A stretch of DNA of 32,279 nt from Sulfuritalea sp. GTDB lineage: Bacteria; Pseudomonadota; Gammaproteobacteria; Burkholderiales; Rhodocyclaceae. Where the stretch lies: the NCBI GenBank assembly GCA_030651305.1, contig JAUSCI010000068.1, positions 1 to 32,279 of the forward strand, in the 5' to 3' direction. Positions 2,084 to 12,455 of this stretch are shown piece after piece. Made by a program: the position numbers and the translations under genes. Under the pieces are notes generated by a model. The model was not told the origin of the DNA. It saw only the letters and a list, made by a program, of their open reading frames with translations, and did no database searches. Every line of letters begins with the position of its first letter. The stretch's first letter is position 1.

Positions 2084-2332
2084 ATGACGACATTGGAACT
2101 GAAACTCAACCTGCCGGATCGATTGGCACAGGATGCCGCCCAAATGGGACTCCTGAAGCCGGATAGTCTGCAATCGCTGTTACGCGAAGCCGTGCGCAAT
2201 CGTCGTATCGCACAACTGGCCGAGGCACGTAAACGGATAGCGGCAGCGGGCATCCCGCCCATGAGTCTGGACGAAATTCAGGACGAAGTGGATGCCCATC
2301 GCGCCGCGCAACGCGGTCAGGCCGTGGGCTGA
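2084..2332 (+). CDS. Antitoxin of PIN-family toxin-antitoxin pair
   Basis: This 82-residue protein starts MTTLELKLNLPDRLAQDAAQ, behind a strong SD (AAAAGGAG, 2071-2078). The N-terminal beta strand followed by helices (residues 1-45), with LKLNLPDRLAQDA then SLLREAVRNRRIAQ, is what one expects of a ribbon-helix-helix-like antitoxin. The C-terminal half (MSLDEIQDEVDAHRAAQRG) is a typical toxin-wrapping tail. Its TGA stop shares one base with the ATG of the downstream PIN toxin (TGATG), so the two are translationally coupled. It likely represses its own promoter. It is the only toxin-antitoxin pair in the window whose two members both look complete. Confidence 0.8.
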   Translation: MTTLELKLNLPDRLAQDAAQMGLLKPDSLQSLLREAVRNRRIAQLAEARKRIAAAGIPPMSLDEIQDEVDAHRAAQRGQAVG

Positions 2333-2754
2333 TGCGCCTGGTACTCGACACCAACGTGGTGGCGTCAGGCTTGTTGTGGAACGGCGCACCGGCACGCTTG
2401 CTTGATGCGGCGCAAACCGGGGAACTCGAACTTTTTACCAGCACACGCTTGCTGGCTGAGTTGGCCGGCATTTTGACCCGCGCCAAGTTCGCCAAGGCGC
2501 TAGCCATCGCCGGGTTGCCGTGCGAAGAGTTGGTGTTGGGCTATGCAGAATTGGCTACCGTCATAGCGCCTGCGGCAATCCCGCCAACCATTGAGGCCGA
2601 TCCCTCCGACGATCAGGTATTGGCCTGCGCCATGACTGCCAACGCCGATCTGATTGTCTCCGGCGACAAGCATTTGCATAGCCTGGGCGGCAAGTACAAC
2701 GGCATTCGCATCGTCAGACCCGCCGAGGCAATGAGCATCGTCGAGGCTGGGTAG
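2332..2754 (+). CDS. PIN-domain toxin ribonuclease
   Basis: This 140-residue PIN-domain protein is of the 'putative toxin component, PIN family' (COG1569-like) group. Acidic residues expected to bind Mg2+/Mn2+ are all visible: D6 in VLDTNV, E43 in LLAEL, D94 in DPSDDQVLACA and D112 in IVSGDKHL. Such toxins cleave RNA and are held inactive by the upstream antitoxin. The gene overlaps the antitoxin stop by one base. Length and motif order are normal, so it is probably functional. The RNA target cannot be deduced from sequence. It is followed directly by REP and long-repeat DNA. Confidence 0.9.
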   Translation: MRLVLDTNVVASGLLWNGAPARLLDAAQTGELELFTSTRLLAELAGILTRAKFAKALAIAGLPCEELVLGYAELATVIAPAAIPPTIEADPSDDQVLACAMTANADLIVSGDKHLHSLGGKYNGIRIVRPAEAMSIVEAG

Positions 2755-3210: not shown

Positions 3211-4056
3211 CTATGTCTTTTTGGCTCGTTTGTTGTGCCAATTTACCAGTCGCTGCATATCACCGTCTTTAATATCTCGCGGCGACTGCACTTTCAAACC
3301 AAGTTTCTCTCGGACCTCGGTTAGTAACGCGCTGTGCCCGAATGGATAAATCTGTTCTTCGAAGATGAGGCCGAATCCACGGTATGTCGTAGCAATGTTG
3401 TGCATGTAGGATTTCGGCGCATAGCGCATGATGAAAAGCGGTGTCAGTCCGAGGTGCTTGCAGAGATCGAGTTTCAAATCAAGTTCGGGGCGTTGAATGT
3501 AGTTCTGTGTGTTCTTTATTTCGATTCCGTATGCAATGCCATCGCGCACAACTATCCGGTCTAGGTTGTGATTTGTCTTCGTCCACGCCGCCCCTTCCCA
3601 ATTCTTGGCATCTTTATCTTTGATCATGAACCCATGCCGAGAGAGCGCCGAGTCGAACATCATTTCCGCGTGTCGGCCAATGGCATGTGTGAACTCCGGA
3701 TCGAAAATCCGTTCCAGGAGTGCCTGTAGTTGTTTCTGTTCGCGTTTCCAATACCGATATTTCGGATGCGCGTAGAAATTGACCGACTTCCCCTGTACTA
3801 CGGCAGGCATGCGCTGGATCTTTCCAGCATTGCCGAGTTCCAGCAGCGCCTTGTTCGTGATCCAGTGAAATATATCCCGCTCCAGTTGGGTTTCGATCTG
3901 GGTCGAGTAGAACACCCGGGTGGGTGCGTCGTTGAATATCTGAAGGATGCGCGGTGCCGCCGCGTCGATTGCCTCGTCGCGCGGTCTGGCCAATGTCGGT
4001 TCGTCGTCGTAATCCTCGTCGTGCACATGCCAATCGTACCTGACCGCACGGGCCAT
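3211..4056 (-). CDS. Putative PD-(D/E)XK nuclease with N-terminal winged helix
   Basis: This is a 281-residue protein from ATG 4056 (a GTG at 4071 would add five residues; neither has a clear SD). Residues ~33-95 look like a winged helix (ILQIFNDAPTRVFYSTQIE ... LLELGNAGKIQRM). Residues ~125-205 carry a PD-(D/E)XK core: E131 in a helix (HAEMMFDSAL), D166 in LDRIVV, then E179 and K181 in YGIEIKNTQN. These match the metal-binding acidic residues and catalytic lysine of this nuclease superfamily, which includes restriction enzymes and resolvases. I do not recognise the specific family. Base composition is visibly lower in GC than in neighbouring genes, and the gene lies alone between two inverted long repeats, so it is probably acquired. 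No methyltransferase or partner is visible. Possible roles are solitary DNA defence or element maintenance; both are inference. Confidence 0.7.
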   Translation of the reverse strand: MARAVRYDWHVHDEDYDDEPTLARPRDEAIDAAAPRILQIFNDAPTRVFYSTQIETQLERDIFHWITNKALLELGNAGKIQRMPAVVQGKSVNFYAHPKYRYWKREQKQLQALLERIFDPEFTHAIGRHAEMMFDSALSRHGFMIKDKDAKNWEGAAWTKTNHNLDRIVVRDGIAYGIEIKNTQNYIQRPELDLKLDLCKHLGLTPLFIMRYAPKSYMHNIATTYRGFGLIFEEQIYPFGHSALLTEVREKLGLKVQSPRDIKDGDMQRLVNWHNKRAKKT

Positions 4057-4079
4057 GCGATAAAGTTGCACCGTCGCCG

Positions 4080-5822: not shown

Positions 5823-6494
5823 TTACGACGACGACGGTTCAGGCGACGGTGCGTCGGTGTTTGCCGGGGGCGGCCCAGCGTCGGAAGCTGTTGGCAGAGA
5901 AAGGTGGTCGTCTGGTCGCAATGCGTTGGTTTCCCTGTCGATGCCGACGTGCGCGTCGGGGCCAGGGACCGTACCCGGCGGCGTGTTGCAGTCGGCAAGC
6001 AGAAACACCTCGCCGTTGAGCAGGCAGGCGGTGGCAGCCTTGCGTGGGGCGTGAGCTTCGTCGGGATACTGTACGGTCATCTGCGGTGCACTGTTCAGGC
6101 TGTCCATCCGGAAGGCTGCATCCTGATAAACGTAACCGGCACTGGGACGAATACCGGCAACTTGCAGCAAGGCAAATCCTGGCACTGCGATGCCGGCCAT
6201 CTGCGTCGCCCGGCGCGGGGTCTGCTTGGCGACTTGTTGCTTGTTCGACTTGACGGCAGCGAGCTTTGACTTTTTCGACGATGTCCTGGCGACGCGACTG
6301 CGCGCAGACTTGCCGGCTTTCTTGACATATTTATTGCTGGCTTTCCTGGTGACCGGTTTGCTGGCTTTGCTCGCATGCGCCGCCTCTGCGGCGGATGGCA
6401 GCGTCAGCGCAACGCCCGGCACACCGATGCTGGCAGCGCACAGAACTATTCCGGCGTATTTCGAAACCGAGGCAAGAATGCGGGCGGAGTTCAT
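5823..6494 (-). CDS. Secreted basic protein of unknown function
   Basis: This is a 223-residue protein. The N-terminus (residues 1-38) has a weakly charged start, a hydrophobic core (YAGIVLCAASIGVPGVALTL) and an AEAA/AHA-type cleavage region, so it is probably exported. Residues ~40-95 are rich in Lys, Arg, Ser and Ala, resembling a disordered cationic segment. The middle contains two conserved-looking cysteines (TACLLNGEVFLLADCNTPPG) that could form a disulfide. The C-terminus is Pro/Ser/Asp-rich and low complexity. I do not recognise a family. It is transcribed alone, upstream of but not overlapping the lpxA operon end. The start is taken at ATG 6494; the SD is weak. Confidence 0.6.
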   Translation of the reverse strand: MNSARILASVSKYAGIVLCAASIGVPGVALTLPSAAEAAHASKASKPVTRKASNKYVKKAGKSARSRVARTSSKKSKLAAVKSNKQQVAKQTPRRATQMAGIAVPGFALLQVAGIRPSAGYVYQDAAFRMDSLNSAPQMTVQYPDEAHAPRKAATACLLNGEVFLLADCNTPPGTVPGPDAHVGIDRETNALRPDDHLSLPTASDAGPPPANTDAPSPEPSSS

Positions 6495-6588: not shown

Positions 6589-7362
6589 CTAGCGGGTCGG
6601 ATGGGCGAAGCCGCGGCGGCTAGCCGCGATGAAGTCGGCGAGTTCCGTCACGGCGGCGCTGTCCATCTCCTTCATCACCGCCAGCGCTTTGTCGAGCGGT
6701 ACTCGCGAATACAACAGCCGGTAGGCTTCTTTCAGCGCCCTGATCTCGTCCGCGCCAAATCCGTTGCGACGCAAACCGACGAGGTTGAGGCCGCGGGCAC
6801 GACCCGGGTTGCCGTCGGTGATGCAGAAGGGCAGCGCGTCCTGCACCACCTTGGCCGACAGGCCGATCATGGCATTCCTGCCGATGCGGCAGAACTGGTG
6901 CACGGTAACCGCCGCCGAGATGAAGGCGCGCTCATGCACCACCACTTCGCCCGCAAGACCGGCCGTATTGGCCATCACCACCTGGTTGCCGACTGCGCAG
7001 TCGTGGGCGATGTGGCTGTAGGCCATTAGGAAGCAGCCATCGCCGAGCCGGGTGGTGCTGCCGTCGCGCGAACCGCGATGCACCGTGACGCCTTCGCGCA
7101 GCCAGTTGTCGTCGCCGATTTCGGTATAGGAGAGGCAATCCGGCTTGAACTTGAAGTCCTGCGGATCGCCGCCGATCACCGCGTGTTCGGCGATGCGGTT
7201 GCGTGCGCCCATGCGCGTGTGGCGCTTGATCACGGCATGCGCGGCGATTTCGCAATCGTCGCCGAGGACGACGTCCTCCTCGACCACGACAAACGGCCCG
7301 ATGCGGACGTTGGCGCCCAGCCTCGCATCCGTGGCGATGACGGCCGTGGGGTGAAAGTTCAT
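6589..7362 (-). CDS. lpxA: LpxA-type UDP-sugar acyltransferase, probably GlcNAc3N-specific
   Basis: This 257-residue left-handed beta-helix acyltransferase shows hexapeptide repeats over residues ~10-180. LpxA landmarks are clear: GGDPQDFKF (64-72), TVHRGSRDG (93-101), SHIAHDC with the catalytic His at 120 (E. coli His125), VHQF at 154-157, and GLNLVGLRRNGF at 191-202. The C-terminal helices (EAYRLLYS) complete it. LpxA transfers a 3-hydroxyacyl chain from ACP to UDP-GlcNAc in the first step of lipid A synthesis. This copy lies outside the usual lpxD-fabZ-lpxA-lpxB cluster. Its ATG overlaps the stop of an aminotransferase gene (ATGA). Together with the upstream dehydrogenase this matches the gnnA-gnnB-lpxA setting, where LpxA acylates the 3-amino sugar. 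It could be the only LpxA or a second one. Confidence 0.88.
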   Translation of the reverse strand: MNFHPTAVIATDARLGANVRIGPFVVVEEDVVLGDDCEIAAHAVIKRHTRMGARNRIAEHAVIGGDPQDFKFKPDCLSYTEIGDDNWLREGVTVHRGSRDGSTTRLGDGCFLMAYSHIAHDCAVGNQVVMANTAGLAGEVVVHERAFISAAVTVHQFCRIGRNAMIGLSAKVVQDALPFCITDGNPGRARGLNLVGLRRNGFGADEIRALKEAYRLLYSRVPLDKALAVMKEMDSAAVTELADFIAASRRGFAHPTR

Positions 7363-8453
7363 TTCAGCGCGGCACGGATCGTCGCCGCGATGCGTGAGAT
7401 CTGCTCGTCCTTCAGCATCGGCGAAATCGGCAGCGACAGGCAGCGTTGCGCGACGCTCTCGGTCACCGGCAACGAGACATTGCCGTGCGTGGCGGCAAAC
7501 ATCTCCTGCTGGTGCAGCGGCACCGGGTAGTACACGGCACAAGCGATGCCGGCCTCGGTCAGCGCTTTCTGGATGGCGTCGCGACGGTCGGACAGGATCG
7601 TGTACTGGTGATAGACGTGGCGGCCGTGACCGTCGGCGAAGGGCGTCTCGACCAGTCCCGCCAACTGCTGGTTGTAAGAGTCGGCGATGGCGATACGGCG
7701 ATTGTTGAACTGATCGAGGCGTTTCAGCTTGATGCGCAGGATCACGGCCTGGATTTCGTCGAGCCGCGAGTTGTAGCCCAGCACGTGATGGTGGTAGCGC
7801 ACCCGTGAGCCATGGCTGGCCAGCACGCGCAGCTCGGCGGCCAACTGGTCGTCGTCGGTCAGCATCAGGCCGCCATCGCCGAAGGCCGAAAGATTCTTCG
7901 ACGGATAGAAGGAGGTGCAACCGATGTCGCCATTGGCGCCCGACTTGCGCCCGGCATAGTCGGCGCCGAAAGACTGCGCGGCATCCTCGATCAGCTTCAG
8001 CCCATGCTTTTCGCACAGCGCCTTGAGCGGCGCCAGATGCACCGGCTGGCCGAACAGATGCACCGGCAGGATGGCTTTGGTACGCGGCGTAATGGCGGCT
8101 TCGACCAGATTCAAATCGAGGTTGAAAGTGCGCGGATCGATATCGACGAATACCGGTTTGGCGCCGCACATGACCACCGTCGAGGCGGTGGCGACAAAGG
8201 TGAAGGGCGTGGTAATGACCTCGTCGCCCGGAGCAAGTCCGATAGCGCGCAGGGCGATCAGCAGGGCGTCGGTGCCGGAAGCGCAGGAAATCCCATGCTT
8301 GACGCCGGCATAGGCGGCGGCTTCCGCCTCGAAGGCCTTGACGTTGGGACCGCCAATATACTGGCAGGCAGCCAGCGCCGCCGTCACGGCGGGTTCGATT
8401 TCGTCGCGCAGCAAGGCGTATTCGGCCTTGAGATCCAGCATCGGAATGTTCAT
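7359..8453 (-). CDS. gnnB: DegT/DnrJ aminotransferase, probable UDP-3-keto-GlcNAc transaminase
   Basis: This is a 364-residue PLP-dependent sugar aminotransferase of the DegT/DnrJ/EryC1 family. The PLP lysine is K186 in SFYPSKNLSAFGDGG. IEDAAQS (155-161) holds the aspartate contacting the PLP ring nitrogen, and CASGTDAL (57-64) is the phosphate-binding turn. GnnB adds an amino group from glutamate to the 3-keto sugar made by GnnA, giving UDP-GlcNAc3N. The family alone also fits other amino-sugar pathways (O-antigen). The specific call rests on the tight operon with a Gfo/Idh dehydrogenase 11 nt upstream and an LpxA homologue overlapping its end. Confidence 0.8.
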   Translation of the reverse strand: MNIPMLDLKAEYALLRDEIEPAVTAALAACQYIGGPNVKAFEAEAAAYAGVKHGISCASGTDALLIALRAIGLAPGDEVITTPFTFVATASTVVMCGAKPVFVDIDPRTFNLDLNLVEAAITPRTKAILPVHLFGQPVHLAPLKALCEKHGLKLIEDAAQSFGADYAGRKSGANGDIGCTSFYPSKNLSAFGDGGLMLTDDDQLAAELRVLASHGSRVRYHHHVLGYNSRLDEIQAVILRIKLKRLDQFNNRRIAIADSYNQQLAGLVETPFADGHGRHVYHQYTILSDRRDAIQKALTEAGIACAVYYPVPLHQQEMFAATHGNVSLPVTESVAQRCLSLPISPMLKDEQISRIAATIRAALK

Positions 8454-8464
8454 GGTTATGGGCT

Positions 8465-9439
8465 TCAGGAAGAGGGATTCTGGCGCGCAGCGATCATGCG
8501 GTCGATCTCCAGCGCGATGGCCAGTGCGTCGCGGCCCTCACGGCCGCTGACCACGGGCTTTGTTCCGTCACGCACGGCCGCGATGAAGGCTTCAATCTCG
8601 GTCATCAACGCGTCGCCCGGAGGTTGCTGGAAGCTTTCCGTGTCGAGCGGCGGCTCGCCTTCTACAAGAGCCTCGCGCTTCTTGCTGATGCCGATGCGGC
8701 GATCGCCGAAATCGACGGAAATGTATTCGTGGTGCTGGAACACGCGCAGGCGGCGCAGCGAGGCGGTCGAAGTGCGGCTGGCGGTCAGGTTCGCCACGCA
8801 GCCGTTGGCGAATTCGATGCGCGCGTTGGCGATATCGATGCCATCGGTCAGCACAGAGACGCCCGAGGCGCGCAGATCGGCGACCGGGCTGCCGACCAGC
8901 GGCAGGATCAGGTCGAGATCGTGGATCATCAGATCGAGCACCACCGACACGTCGATGCCGCGCGCCTTGAACGGCGCCATGCGGTGGGCTTCGATGAACA
9001 CCGGCCGCTTGATCTTGTCCTTCACCGCGAGCCAAGCCGGATTGAAGCGTTCGAGGTGGCCGACCTGCAGCACCAGTTGCTTGGCGTCGGCCAGCGCGAT
9101 CAGTTCGTCGGCCTGCGCCACGGTGACCGTGATCGGCTTTTCCGCCAGCACATGCACGCCAGCGGCGAGGCAATCGCGCGCCACGGCATGATGGGTTTCG
9201 GTGGTGCTGGCGACCGAGACCAGATCGACCTTCGCGCCTTTGCCACCGTGCGCGCCGAGCAGTTCGCGGTAATCGGTAAAGGCCGCCACGCCCAGCTCTT
9301 TCGCCACGCGCTGCGCCGTTTCCGGATGGGCATCGACCACCCCGACCAGTTCGACATCCGGCAGCGAGGCGTATTTTTGCGCGTGAAAGCGCCCGAGATA
9401 ACCGACGCCGATGACGGCAGCACGAAGGGGAGTGGACAT
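8465..9439 (-). CDS. gnnA: Gfo/Idh dehydrogenase, probable UDP-GlcNAc 3-dehydrogenase
   Basis: This 324-residue NAD-dependent oxidoreductase has an N-terminal Rossmann fold, AAVIGVGYLGRFHA (residues 7-20). The family EKP motif lies at 100-102 (LAEKPITV). LDLMIHDLDLIL in the C-terminal domain supplies the histidine expected near the substrate. GnnA oxidises the 3-hydroxyl of UDP-GlcNAc to a ketone, which GnnB then aminates. The start is ATG 9439; upstream in-frame codons extend into the divergent lpxL promoter and lack similarity. It is the first gene of the gnnA-gnnB-lpxA operon. The generic Gfo/Idh call is secure and the substrate is inferred from context. Confidence 0.8.
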   Translation of the reverse strand: MSTPLRAAVIGVGYLGRFHAQKYASLPDVELVGVVDAHPETAQRVAKELGVAAFTDYRELLGAHGGKGAKVDLVSVASTTETHHAVARDCLAAGVHVLAEKPITVTVAQADELIALADAKQLVLQVGHLERFNPAWLAVKDKIKRPVFIEAHRMAPFKARGIDVSVVLDLMIHDLDLILPLVGSPVADLRASGVSVLTDGIDIANARIEFANGCVANLTASRTSTASLRRLRVFQHHEYISVDFGDRRIGISKKREALVEGEPPLDTESFQQPPGDALMTEIEAFIAAVRDGTKPVVSGREGRDALAIALEIDRMIAARQNPSS

Positions 9440-9504
9440 GGGCCATAATTCTACTTTCTCCGCTGCCTTCGTGCCCGCACCCCGCGCCCGCCGCCCAACC
9501 TGTC

Positions 9505-10395
9505 GTGCTTTTCGCCCTGTTCCGTTTCCTGTCGCATTTGCCGCTGCCGCTGCTGCACAACCTCGGCGCACTTGCCGGCTGGCTGGCATGGCTGCTGTCG
9601 GCCACCTACCGGCGCAACTTCTCCAGGCATATCGAGCAGGCCGGAATGACAGAAGCGAAGACCGCGGCGATTGCCGAGGCCGGCAAAACGCTGCTGGAAC
9701 TGCCCAGGATCTGGCTGCGGCCGCAGGACGAAGTAATCGAGAGCGTGGTCAAGGTTTCCGGCTGGAACCTGGTTGAGGACGCCTGGTCGGCCAGCCGCGG
9801 CATCCTGTTCTTGACGCCGCATCTGGGCTGTTTCGAGATCGCCGCACAGTACTACGCAGCCCGCAAACCAATGACCGTGCTCTACCGCAGGCCAAAGCAG
9901 GACTGGCTGGCGCCGCTGATCGAGGAAGGGCGCGGCGCGAATCTGAAGCTGGCCCCCGCCGACCTTTCCGGCGTGCGGCGCCTGCTGAAGGCGCTGAAGA
10001 GCGGCGACGCCGTGGGCATGCTGCCCGACCAGGTTCCGGGCAACGGCGAAGGCGCCTGGCTGCCCTTCTTCGGCCGTCCCGCCTACACCATGACGCTGGC
10101 GGCGCGGCTCGCGGAAACCGGGGCCACGGTGCTGCTGGCCTATGGCGAGCGCCTGCATTACGGCGCCGGCTACCACCTCAAGCTGTTCCCGTTGTCGGCG
10201 CCACTGGCAGGCGACCTGACGCAGCGCGCGACGCAGCTCAACCGGGAACTGGAAAAACTTATCCGGCTATGCCCCGAGCAGTATCTGTGGGGTTACAACC
10301 GCTACAAGGTGCCGGCGGGAGCCGAGCCGCCGCCCGAGAAGGCCTTGGCCGTCAACGACGCGATGAGTCATGACCAGCATGATCGTTTTGATTGA
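9505..10395 (+). CDS. LpxL/HtrB-family lipid A acyltransferase (first copy)
   Basis: This 296-residue membrane-associated acyltransferase has an N-terminal hydrophobic anchor, LFALFRFLSHLPLPLLHNLG. The catalytic HX4(D/E) motif is at H106-E111 (TPHLGCFE). Later conserved blocks are YRRPKQDW (~127-134), MLPDQVPG (~172-179) and the C-terminal EQYLWGYNRYK. These enzymes transfer secondary acyl chains onto Kdo2-lipid A at the inner membrane. The start is a GTG at 9505 with no evident SD, so the true start is uncertain. It is divergent from gnnA by 65 bp, placing another lipid A gene against the gnn operon. The C-terminal ~20 residues look non-conserved. Confidence 0.9.
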   Translation: MLFALFRFLSHLPLPLLHNLGALAGWLAWLLSATYRRNFSRHIEQAGMTEAKTAAIAEAGKTLLELPRIWLRPQDEVIESVVKVSGWNLVEDAWSASRGILFLTPHLGCFEIAAQYYAARKPMTVLYRRPKQDWLAPLIEEGRGANLKLAPADLSGVRRLLKALKSGDAVGMLPDQVPGNGEGAWLPFFGRPAYTMTLAARLAETGATVLLAYGERLHYGAGYHLKLFPLSAPLAGDLTQRATQLNRELEKLIRLCPEQYLWGYNRYKVPAGAEPPPEKALAVNDAMSHDQHDRFD

Positions 10396-10401
10396 TATCC
10401 C

Positions 10402-10695
10402 ATGATTACTGAAACCAGTGCCGTTGCCTTCAGGAAGAACCTCCGTGAAATGATCAACCAGGTGCAGTATCGCCACGACAGCGTAGTCATCAACAAAGAC
10501 GGCAAACCCGTGGCTGCGCTGGTCGACGTGCGCTTGTTCGAGCGCATCAGGCGCATGCAGGGACGCTTCGACGCACTGTGCCAGCGGATAGAGGCTGGCT
10601 TTGCGCATGTACCGGAAGCGGAAGGCCAGGCTGGAATTGACGCTGCCGTGAAACGCGAACGGGCGAAGGCGCGCGCGCCGACGAAGAAGCGCTGA
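10402..10695 (+). CDS. Phd/YefM-family antitoxin
   Basis: This is a 97-residue protein whose N-terminus, MITETSAVAFRKNLREMINQ followed by VQYRHDSVVINKDGKPVAAL, is the Phd/YefM DNA-binding fold. In this family it forms dimers that bind the operon promoter and, through the C-terminus, the toxin. The C-terminal half is rich in Arg, Lys and Ala. It lies 6 bp after an lpxL gene, so it may be read from the same transcript. The gene behind it encodes only the C-terminal part of a PIN toxin, so the antitoxin may be orphaned. Confidence 0.85.
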   Translation: MITETSAVAFRKNLREMINQVQYRHDSVVINKDGKPVAALVDVRLFERIRRMQGRFDALCQRIEAGFAHVPEAEGQAGIDAAVKRERAKARAPTKKR

Positions 10696-10701
10696 CCCGC
10701 C

Positions 10702-10884
10702 GTGGCCGCTCTGCAAGTGTTGCGCGATGTTACCGATCAAGGGGTGCTGGGCACTTTGCTGGCGACGCTCAAGACATCGGGCGCCGACCATCTCATCAGC
10801 GGCGACAAGGACTTGCTGGCGCTGGCTGAACGCTACCCGATCATCGTTCCCGCGAAGTTCTGGGCAACACACGCCGGACTATGA
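10702..10884 (+). pseudogene. Truncated PIN-domain toxin, C-terminal part only
   Basis: A GTG-started frame of 60 codons reads AALQVLRDVTDQGVLGTLLA and then ADHLISGDKDLLAL and IIVPAKFWATHAGL. The SGDKDLL...YPIIxPxxFW pattern is the C-terminal third of a PIN nuclease. The N-terminal strand with the first catalytic aspartate and the central glutamate are missing, and the third-aspartate region appears as VTDQ. It directly follows a Phd-type antitoxin, the expected partner. It is probably a decayed toxin; an intact minimal protein is unlikely. Confidence 0.7.
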
Positions 10885-11005
10885 TCGAATTGAACATTAT
10901 CTTTCGCGAGAGACTAGCTATTGATATGTTTCGGGCTGGTCGTCGCGGTGTTTCCAGATCGCGAATCGAAGCAGACCCATTTGATTGCCGCACACTGGAG
11001 AGCGT

Positions 11006-11449
11006 ATGACACCAGAAAAAGCACGCAAGTATCTCGACATCGCCCTCGCGGCTGCGCAACTTAGCAAGGACACCAGCACCAAGGTCGGCGCTATTATCGT
11101 CGGCCCGACCAATGAAGTCAGGTCGCTTGGCTACAACGGGGCGCCGCGCGGATGCAGTGCCGATGAAGATGACCGCGGGCAGACACGGCCGGAGAAATAC
11201 TTCTGGTTTTCGCACGCGGAAATGAACGCAATCACAAACGCGGCGCGCGTCGGCACCCCTCTGGACGGCAGCAGCCTGGTCGTCAGCCATCCGCCGTGCA
11301 TGGACTGCGCTCGGGCGATCGTGCAGGCCGGGATCAAGCATGTGTTCTGTCCCAGGCCAGACGACGATTTCGTCACTCGATGGCAAGAGCACATTCGACG
11401 CTCGGAGCTACTTTTCAAGGAAACAGGCGTCGAGTACGTCTGGATTTGA
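11006..11449 (+). CDS. Deoxycytidylate (dCMP) deaminase-like zinc enzyme
   Basis: This is a 147-residue cytidine/deoxycytidylate deaminase-fold protein. Zinc ligands and catalytic base are visible: H70-A-E72 (SHAEMNAI) and C98-x2-C101 (HPPCMDCARAI). The early block TKVGAIIVGP and YNGAPRGC are typical of dCMP deaminases, which convert dCMP to dUMP for thymidylate synthesis. The start is ATG 11006 with GGAG at 10997-11000. The gene sits between a broken toxin-antitoxin pair and the second lpxL, in a slightly AT-richer patch. Such genes are frequent in phages, so acquisition is plausible. A role outside nucleotide metabolism cannot be excluded. Confidence 0.88.
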   Translation: MTPEKARKYLDIALAAAQLSKDTSTKVGAIIVGPTNEVRSLGYNGAPRGCSADEDDRGQTRPEKYFWFSHAEMNAITNAARVGTPLDGSSLVVSHPPCMDCARAIVQAGIKHVFCPRPDDDFVTRWQEHIRRSELLFKETGVEYVWI

Positions 11450-11594: not shown

Positions 11595-12455
11595 ATGACA
11601 CGACTCATTCTCGCCCTGATGTGGCTTCTGCACTGGCTGCCACTGCCGCTGTTGGCCGCTCTCGGGCGTGGCCTGGGACTGGCGCTCTATCTTCTGGTAG
11701 GCGAACGGCGGCAGGTCACGCTGACCAACCTCGACCTGTGCTTTCCGCATCTGTCGGCGGCCGAAAAGTCGGCGCTGGCGAGACGCCACTTTGCCGCCTT
11801 CGGGCGCAGCATTCTGGAACTCGGCCTCTGGTGGTGGGCTTCGCCGGCGCGCATCCGGCGCCTGGTCAGGCTCGACGGCGGCGAGAAGCTCGCGGCGTAC
11901 AAGGGCCGGCCGACGATCCTGCTGGTGCCGCATTTCGTCGGCATCGACGCCGGCTGGATCCGACTGGCGCTGGAGCAGGGGCTGGTGGCGATCTACACGC
12001 GGCAGAAGAATCGTGTCTTCGAGACAGCGATGAACGATGGCCGGCTGCGCTTTGGCAACTGCGCCCTGGCATCGCGCCAGGAAGGCACGCGCAAGGCGCT
12101 CAAGGCGATGAAGGACGGCCGCTTTTTCCACTACTCGCCGGACATGGATTACGGCCCGAAAGAGTCGGTCTTCGTGCCCTTCTTCGGGGTGCAGACGGCC
12201 ACCATCACCGGTCTCGCCCGGCTGGCCAGGTTGACCGGGGCGACGGTGATCCCGGTGGTGACACGCATGGAATCGGGTGGCTACGTTGCCACCGTGGGCG
12301 AGCCATGGACGGACTTCCCCGGCGCCGACGACGTGGCTGACGCGCAGCGCCTGAACGCCTTCATCGAGGCCGAAGTATTGAAGTCGCACGAACAGTACTA
12401 CTGGCTGCACAAACGCTTCAAAACACGGCCGCCGGGCGAAAAAGGGGTTTATTGA
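11595..12455 (+). CDS. LpxL/HtrB-family lipid A acyltransferase (second copy)
   Basis: This 286-residue paralogue of the gene at 9505 has an N-terminal membrane anchor ([20 protein letters not shown]) and the HX4D motif at H113-D118 (VPHFVGID). [27 protein letters not shown] and [17 protein letters not shown] are family landmarks. It probably adds the second secondary acyl chain to lipid A. Compared with the first copy it keeps Asp where that copy has Glu and has the typical KRFKTRP C-terminus, so it is the closer match to classical LpxL. The start is ATG 11595 with a weak SD. It lies directly upstream of dapF. Confidence 0.93.

Follow-up and report, generated by a model that had tools for sequence, protein, structure and literature searches.

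Lipid A chemistry governs the outer-membrane stability and host sensing of Gram-negative bacteria, and lipid A containing 2,3-diamino-2,3-dideoxy-D-glucose (GlcN3N) is usually regarded as a trait of few groups. Campylobacter jejuni and Leptospira interrogans have GlcN3N in their lipid A and an LpxA acyltransferase that can use UDP-GlcNAc3N or is selective for it, and the LpxA of Acidithiobacillus ferrooxidans reportedly prefers this substrate according to work from the Raetz group. In an A. ferrooxidans-type reference genome (L339/G239) we found the gene order lpxD-fabZ-lpxA-gnnA-gnnB-lpxB and a single LpxA, with Arg200 and Gly76 versus the Glu and Lys of E. coli; its GnnA is 100% identical to the solved structure 7bvj over 302 residues, which identifies this genome as A. 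ferrooxidans or a very close relative. Capnocytophaga canimorsus has lpxA, lpxA', gnnA and gnnB, the two lpxA genes lying together with lpxC and lpxD, and the study that solved its lipid A structure reports GlcN3N'-GlcN lipid A in >95% of molecules, with what each lpxA does being given there as a suggestion (PMC3342949). Here we analyze a window (the whole stretch studied, 32,279 nucleotides, contig JAUSCI010000068.1 of Sulfuritalea sp. assembly GCA_030651305.1) in which gnnA, gnnB and an lpxA paralog, which we call LpxA2, form one minus-strand operon. This operon is probably a cassette through which lipid A gains amide-linked primary acyl chains, set atop a complete conventional pathway and yielding a hybrid or mixed backbone of glucosamine (GlcN) and GlcN3N.

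A gnnA-gnnB-lpxA operon added to a complete lpx gene set

On the minus strand, gnnA (8465-9439, 324 amino acids), a predicted UDP-GlcNAc 3-dehydrogenase of the Gfo/Idh/MocA family, is followed after an 11-nt gap (8454-8464) by gnnB (7359-8453, 364 amino acids), a predicted pyridoxal phosphate (PLP)-dependent UDP-3-keto-GlcNAc aminotransferase of the DegT family. The latter overlaps by 4 nt, ATGA (7359-7362), with lpxA2 (6589-7362, 257 amino acids), a predicted UDP-GlcNAc3N 3-N-acyltransferase. An alternative upstream ATG for gnnA at 9589 sits within the divergent lpxL open reading frame (ORF), and in most close-relative homologs the alignment starts at 9439. These coordinates agree with the tight operon proposed in a first-pass annotation of the stretch, and family matches bear out its three gene identities.

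GnnA matches GFO_IDH_MocA at 110 bits, and its best NCBIfam model, UDP-GlcNAc 3-dehydrogenase, at 191 bits, below the cut-off of 450. By both sequence and fold its best solved match is A. ferrooxidans GnnA (44% identity), much nearer than WlbA or other Gfo/Idh proteins, which points to the UDP-GlcNAc3N route that had been suggested. (The GnnA alignment used 25 of 29 listed sequences; L044, L045, L057 and L071 were dropped, L045 with a stop.) LpxA2 scores 310 and 299 bits against NF003657 and TIGR01852 (cut-offs 226 and 231), has the C-terminal Acetyltransf_11 domain, and keeps H122, H125 (the catalytic His125), D74, K76, N198 and R204; V200 and E144 stand in place of Glu and His. Pathway identity is well supported by comparison, resting chiefly on the resemblances of GnnA and LpxA.

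A search of the genome for a second lpxA in an lpxD-fabZ-lpxA-lpxB cluster, the check proposed along with that annotation, found a canonical copy at C52:28722-29480. There an OmpH/Skp-like gene, lpxD, fabZ, lpxA and lpxB follow one another, the last four at 360, 201, 324 and 363 bits, all above their family cut-offs. The canonical LpxA has Glu200, and a single LpxB was found in the genome. As this cluster is complete, the lpxA of the trio is a paralog, an addition to a full set of early enzymes, and the fully amide-linked lipid A proposed earlier does not follow. The two LpxAs may also differ in their choice of chain length, since LpxA2 has Leu and the canonical enzyme Met at residue 173, an acyl-chain position according to PMC6408518.

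In the mechanism that we propose, GnnA would oxidize C3 of UDP-GlcNAc and GnnB would transaminate the 3-keto product to UDP-GlcNAc3N, after which LpxA2 would attach a 3-hydroxyacyl chain to the 3-amino group so formed. Meanwhile the canonical LpxA would continue to supply the ester-linked 3-O-acyl precursor, and both precursors would share the later steps, giving the hybrid or mixed GlcN/GlcN3N backbone. What the sequences show directly is the gene content, the presence of two LpxAs, their lineage, the co-occurrence with GnnA and the residue pattern; from these we predict the enzyme activities, the substrate chosen by LpxA2 and the makeup of the backbone.

Were GnnA and GnnB to convert most of the UDP-GlcNAc pool, both units of lipid A could instead carry amide-linked 3-acyl chains, with the canonical LpxA hardly used or also working on UDP-GlcNAc3N, a substrate that E. 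coli-type LpxA can reportedly accept (Raetz-group work). We think this improbable. The canonical LpxA is above its family cut-off (324 bits) with Glu200 in place, two LpxAs are retained in 27/31 genomes of the genus, and C. canimorsus, with two lpxA genes, makes a hybrid (PMC3342949). That organism has the same gene set, and by analogy the backbone expected of a Sulfuritalea-type cell is a hybrid or mixed one of GlcN and GlcN3N, which we consider likelier than an all-amide lipid A.

Relationship of GnnB to O-antigen sugar enzymes

GnnB matches DegT_DnrJ_EryC1 at 422 bits and is 53% identical to the gnnB product of the A. ferrooxidans-type genome. Among solved structures it matches 7b0d best (375 bits; named glutamine--scyllo-inositol transaminase), and the O-antigen enzyme WbpE matches at 336 bits. 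Such scores would suit a different role, in which GnnA and GnnB feed a 2,3-diamino sugar into O-antigen or some other glycan, LpxA2 being either incidental or an acyltransferase for a different glycolipid. In a GnnB tree, from which 11 of 15 Sulfuritalea-type rows were dropped, 52 gnnA-linked rows required 4 label changes versus 17.8 when labels were shuffled, and 16 gnnA-less loci formed a clade of their own with 7b0d (98*). The GnnB of the window falls on the gnnA-linked side; WbpE, a long branch of unsure place, is on the same side. The refutation named in the first-pass annotation, a grouping of the two enzymes with O-antigen sugar enzymes, was not borne out: GnnA is much nearer A. ferrooxidans GnnA than WlbA, although GnnB is not decisive. 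Against a glycan role stand this match of GnnA, the third gene, which encodes a full-length LpxA above cut-off (the N-acetyltransferase 8e62 aligns over just 155 residues), and the tendency of second LpxAs to go with GnnA even when the genes are not neighbors. We regard a glycan role as about as improbable as an all-GlcN3N lipid A.

GnnB-like proteins also occur in two genomes with a single LpxA, at 55% identity in G052 (C2:150950-151711, L099), where position 200 is Arg, and at 60% in G061 (L139), where it is Glu.

A GnnA-associated LpxA lineage

For GnnA and LpxA we searched 140 gammaproteobacterial families (in the GTDB sense, which includes Betaproteobacteria), each represented by one genome. 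GnnA scores were bimodal, with 55/140 genomes at >=342 bits and the remainder at <=145. Two LpxA copies were present in 20 genomes, one in 117 and none in 3. GnnA occurred in 19/20 two-LpxA genomes compared to 36/117 single-LpxA genomes (Fisher p 4.5e-8). The second lpxA, defined as the lower-scoring copy of each pair under TIGR01852, lay <=2 kb from gnnA in 6/19 (G000, G119, G134, G151, G155 and G212) and farther away or on another contig in the others, so the association with GnnA is not due to linkage alone. One of the six, G119 (C237:29653-32235; L230, L231), has gnnA flanked by a canonical lpxA on one side and an LpxA2-type lpxA on the other, all on one strand, a possible intermediate arrangement.

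In a tree of 130 LpxA sequences, 18/19 second copies of GnnA-positive genomes, including that of the window, fell in one 25-row group (Shimodaira-Hasegawa-like approximate likelihood ratio test (SH-aLRT) 99); 18 of the 20 two-LpxA genomes thus have GnnA together with a second LpxA of one lineage. Its other members are two further Sulfuritalea-type rows, the gnn-linked LpxAs of L032 (Granulosicoccaceae), L033 (a gammaproteobacterial metagenome-assembled genome (MAG)) and L043 (Methylococcaceae), and the second LpxAs of the L040 (Methylobacter) and L036 genomes. A slower 69-row tree, which left out two long second copies (L238, L309), kept every fifth single-LpxA row and added the A. ferrooxidans LpxA, retained the group with 23 rows (bootstrap 100, SH-aLRT 99; the bootstrap had not fully settled) and placed the A. 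ferrooxidans LpxA outside it. In the literature searched we found no prior description of an LpxA lineage tied to GnnA.

A locus from an Ectothiorhodospiraceae MAG (L044:3240-8742) has a gnn-linked LpxA with Arg200 and a canonical LpxA with Glu200 within 6 kb.

Position 200 tends to distinguish LpxA copies

Among single-LpxA genomes, the best of 252 alignment columns for separating those with and without GnnA was E. coli position 200, with Glu200 in 35/39 genomes lacking GnnA versus 8/36 carrying it (p 1.7e-9). Positions 104, 116, 75 and 76 came next. Where a genome has two LpxAs and GnnA, Glu200 is present in 16/19 first copies and 0/19 second copies. LpxA2 belongs to a distinct GnnA-associated LpxA lineage that lost Glu200. 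Columns 64, 65, 67, 156 and 170 split first and second copies almost perfectly, and at these lineage and function are inseparable. In sequence, position 200 adjoins N198 and R204 of the substrate site, and Glu200 presumably contacts the sugar nucleotide. Our own pairing code, run on the best, weakly supported LpxA tree, returned 16 pairs, about 8 for the association and 0 against.

From the co-occurrence with GnnA and the loss of Glu200, LpxA2 would be predicted to use UDP-GlcNAc3N, a case that is indirect. A wider proposal, for which we see even odds, is that LpxA2 is an unrecognized lineage dedicated to amide formation on UDP-GlcNAc3N, that it accompanies a canonical LpxA in roughly one of every eight gammaproteobacterial families (18/140 sampled) and makes controlled hybrid lipid A common in the class, and that position 200 is a main residue by which O- and N-acylating enzymes differ. 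These patterns offer a sequence test to predict from a genome whether lipid A is amide-linked or hybrid, and name residue 200, then 104, 116, 75 and 76, as candidates for substrate choice in LpxA, a long-studied drug-target enzyme.

Conservation across the genus and points that weigh against a hybrid

The operon order is the same in 15/15 named close relatives (L017-L031, with titles including Sulfuritalea, Rhodocyclales, Rhodocyclaceae and others), the L026 contig ending within lpxA2 and the L019 copy having a broken lpxA2 frame, and so the arrangement is no chance one. A gnnB ortholog at >=86% identity is present in 28/31 genus genomes (86-93% in the 27 other than that of the window). Two LpxA matches were found in 27/31 genus genomes, some of them partial; G003, which has gnnB but is not among these 27, carries its trio at the contig end where L026 stops. 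Outside the genus but within the family and order, 0/30 genomes had two. Three of the 31 genus genomes lack the gnnB ortholog, and in two of these (G020 and G029) lpxL1 and the major facilitator superfamily (MFS) gene are neighbors, with ~150 and 840 bases between matches; these genomes either lost the cassette or never had it.

Several findings weigh against reading the operon as an amide-acylation cassette that yields a hybrid backbone. Taken by itself, GnnB would also fit an O-antigen role, and the window LpxA2 has Glu at 144, where the His144 of E. coli LpxA is proposed to act in substrate binding (PMC6408518). One second LpxA, that of G155, lies outside the LpxA2 group and joins gnn-linked LpxAs of Ectothiorhodospiraceae, Geobacter relatives and Nitrospirota in the 130-row tree, and one two-LpxA genome, G196, listed with 6% contamination, is the sole one without GnnA. 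Loss of Glu200 is a tendency and no rule, as the residue is kept in 8/36 GnnA-positive and missing from 4/39 GnnA-negative single-LpxA genomes; the latter were 39 of 81 such genomes (19 whose LpxA ranked in the top 30 by score, and 20 chosen from the table). The rows are related, and with only 2 independent pairs on starred (supported) branches the phylogeny-corrected test is powerless. In one Sulfuritalea MAG, represented by two copies of one contig (L016:727-1495 and L019:5474-6242), the lpxA2 frame breaks near residues 80-86, by either assembly error or decay. Finally, the literature searched contained no lipid A chemistry for Sulfuritalea.

The broken frame in L016/L019 and the three genomes without gnnB, two with lpxL1 and the MFS gene adjacent, would fit a redundant cassette or one expressed under stress only, with ordinary cells making normal ester-linked lipid A, but the operon order in all 15 named loci, the 86-93% identity of gnnB and the intact catalytic residues of LpxA2 make this the least probable of the explanations considered.

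Flanking genes in the window

A 65-nt region (9440-9504), which from its sequence we presume to hold the promoters of both genes, separates gnnA from the divergent lpxL1 (9505-10395, plus strand; PRK08905, 377 bits), an LpxL/HtrB-type late acyltransferase. A second LpxL-type gene, lpxL2 (11595-12455, plus strand; Lip_A_acyltrans, 200 bits), lies farther on, and after it come dapF and a recombinase gene of the phage-integrase type, XerC by position. lpxL1 adjoins gnnA in 15/15 named trio loci, with lpxL2 beyond lpxL1 in 9/15 and an MFS gene beyond lpxA2 in 7/15, the rest being shortened or different there. In four genomes of other genera (G032, G033, G034 and G036) lpxL1 occurs without the trio in the flank examined. 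Because LpxL genes are present in relatives without the trio, both are ancestral neighbors outside the cassette, and are uninformative about it; the first-pass annotation had taken them as support.

Between lpxL1 and a deaminase-like gene (10985-11449, plus strand, 154 amino acids; best NCBIfam an anti-phage dCTP deaminase model at 70 bits, far below its cut-off of 400) lies a Phd/YefM-type antitoxin gene (10402-10695, plus strand; PF02604, 36 bits), followed by a short PIN-like fragment (~10703-10883, plus strand), read by eye. A PIN_3 domain protein at 2332-2754 (plus strand, 71 bits) is another probable toxin-antitoxin part. Two minus-strand ORFs, at 5823-6494 (223 amino acids) and 3211-4071 (286 amino acids), had no Pfam or NCBIfam match at E <= 0.001. 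The nearest named records to the window are from Sulfuritalea, other Rhodocyclales and unplaced betaproteobacterial MAGs, consistent with the betaproteobacterial origin read from the sequence at first.

Comparison with known systems

The Sulfuritalea operon resembles A. ferrooxidans in having GnnA and GnnB of the same kind and an LpxA that departs from Glu200. The arrangement is not the same: in A. ferrooxidans gnnAB lies within the main lpx cluster beside the only LpxA, whereas in the window genome the cassette is separate, ordered gnnA-gnnB-lpxA, its LpxA is a paralog of another lineage, and a canonical lpxA is kept. The LpxA structures of C. jejuni and L. interrogans (3r0s and 3hsq) appear in PDB searches and are compared here by search scores only. 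A parallel in gene content is C. canimorsus, a member of the Bacteroidota unlike Sulfuritalea: the window genome likewise has two LpxAs with GnnA and GnnB, the gene set of a predicted hybrid producer.
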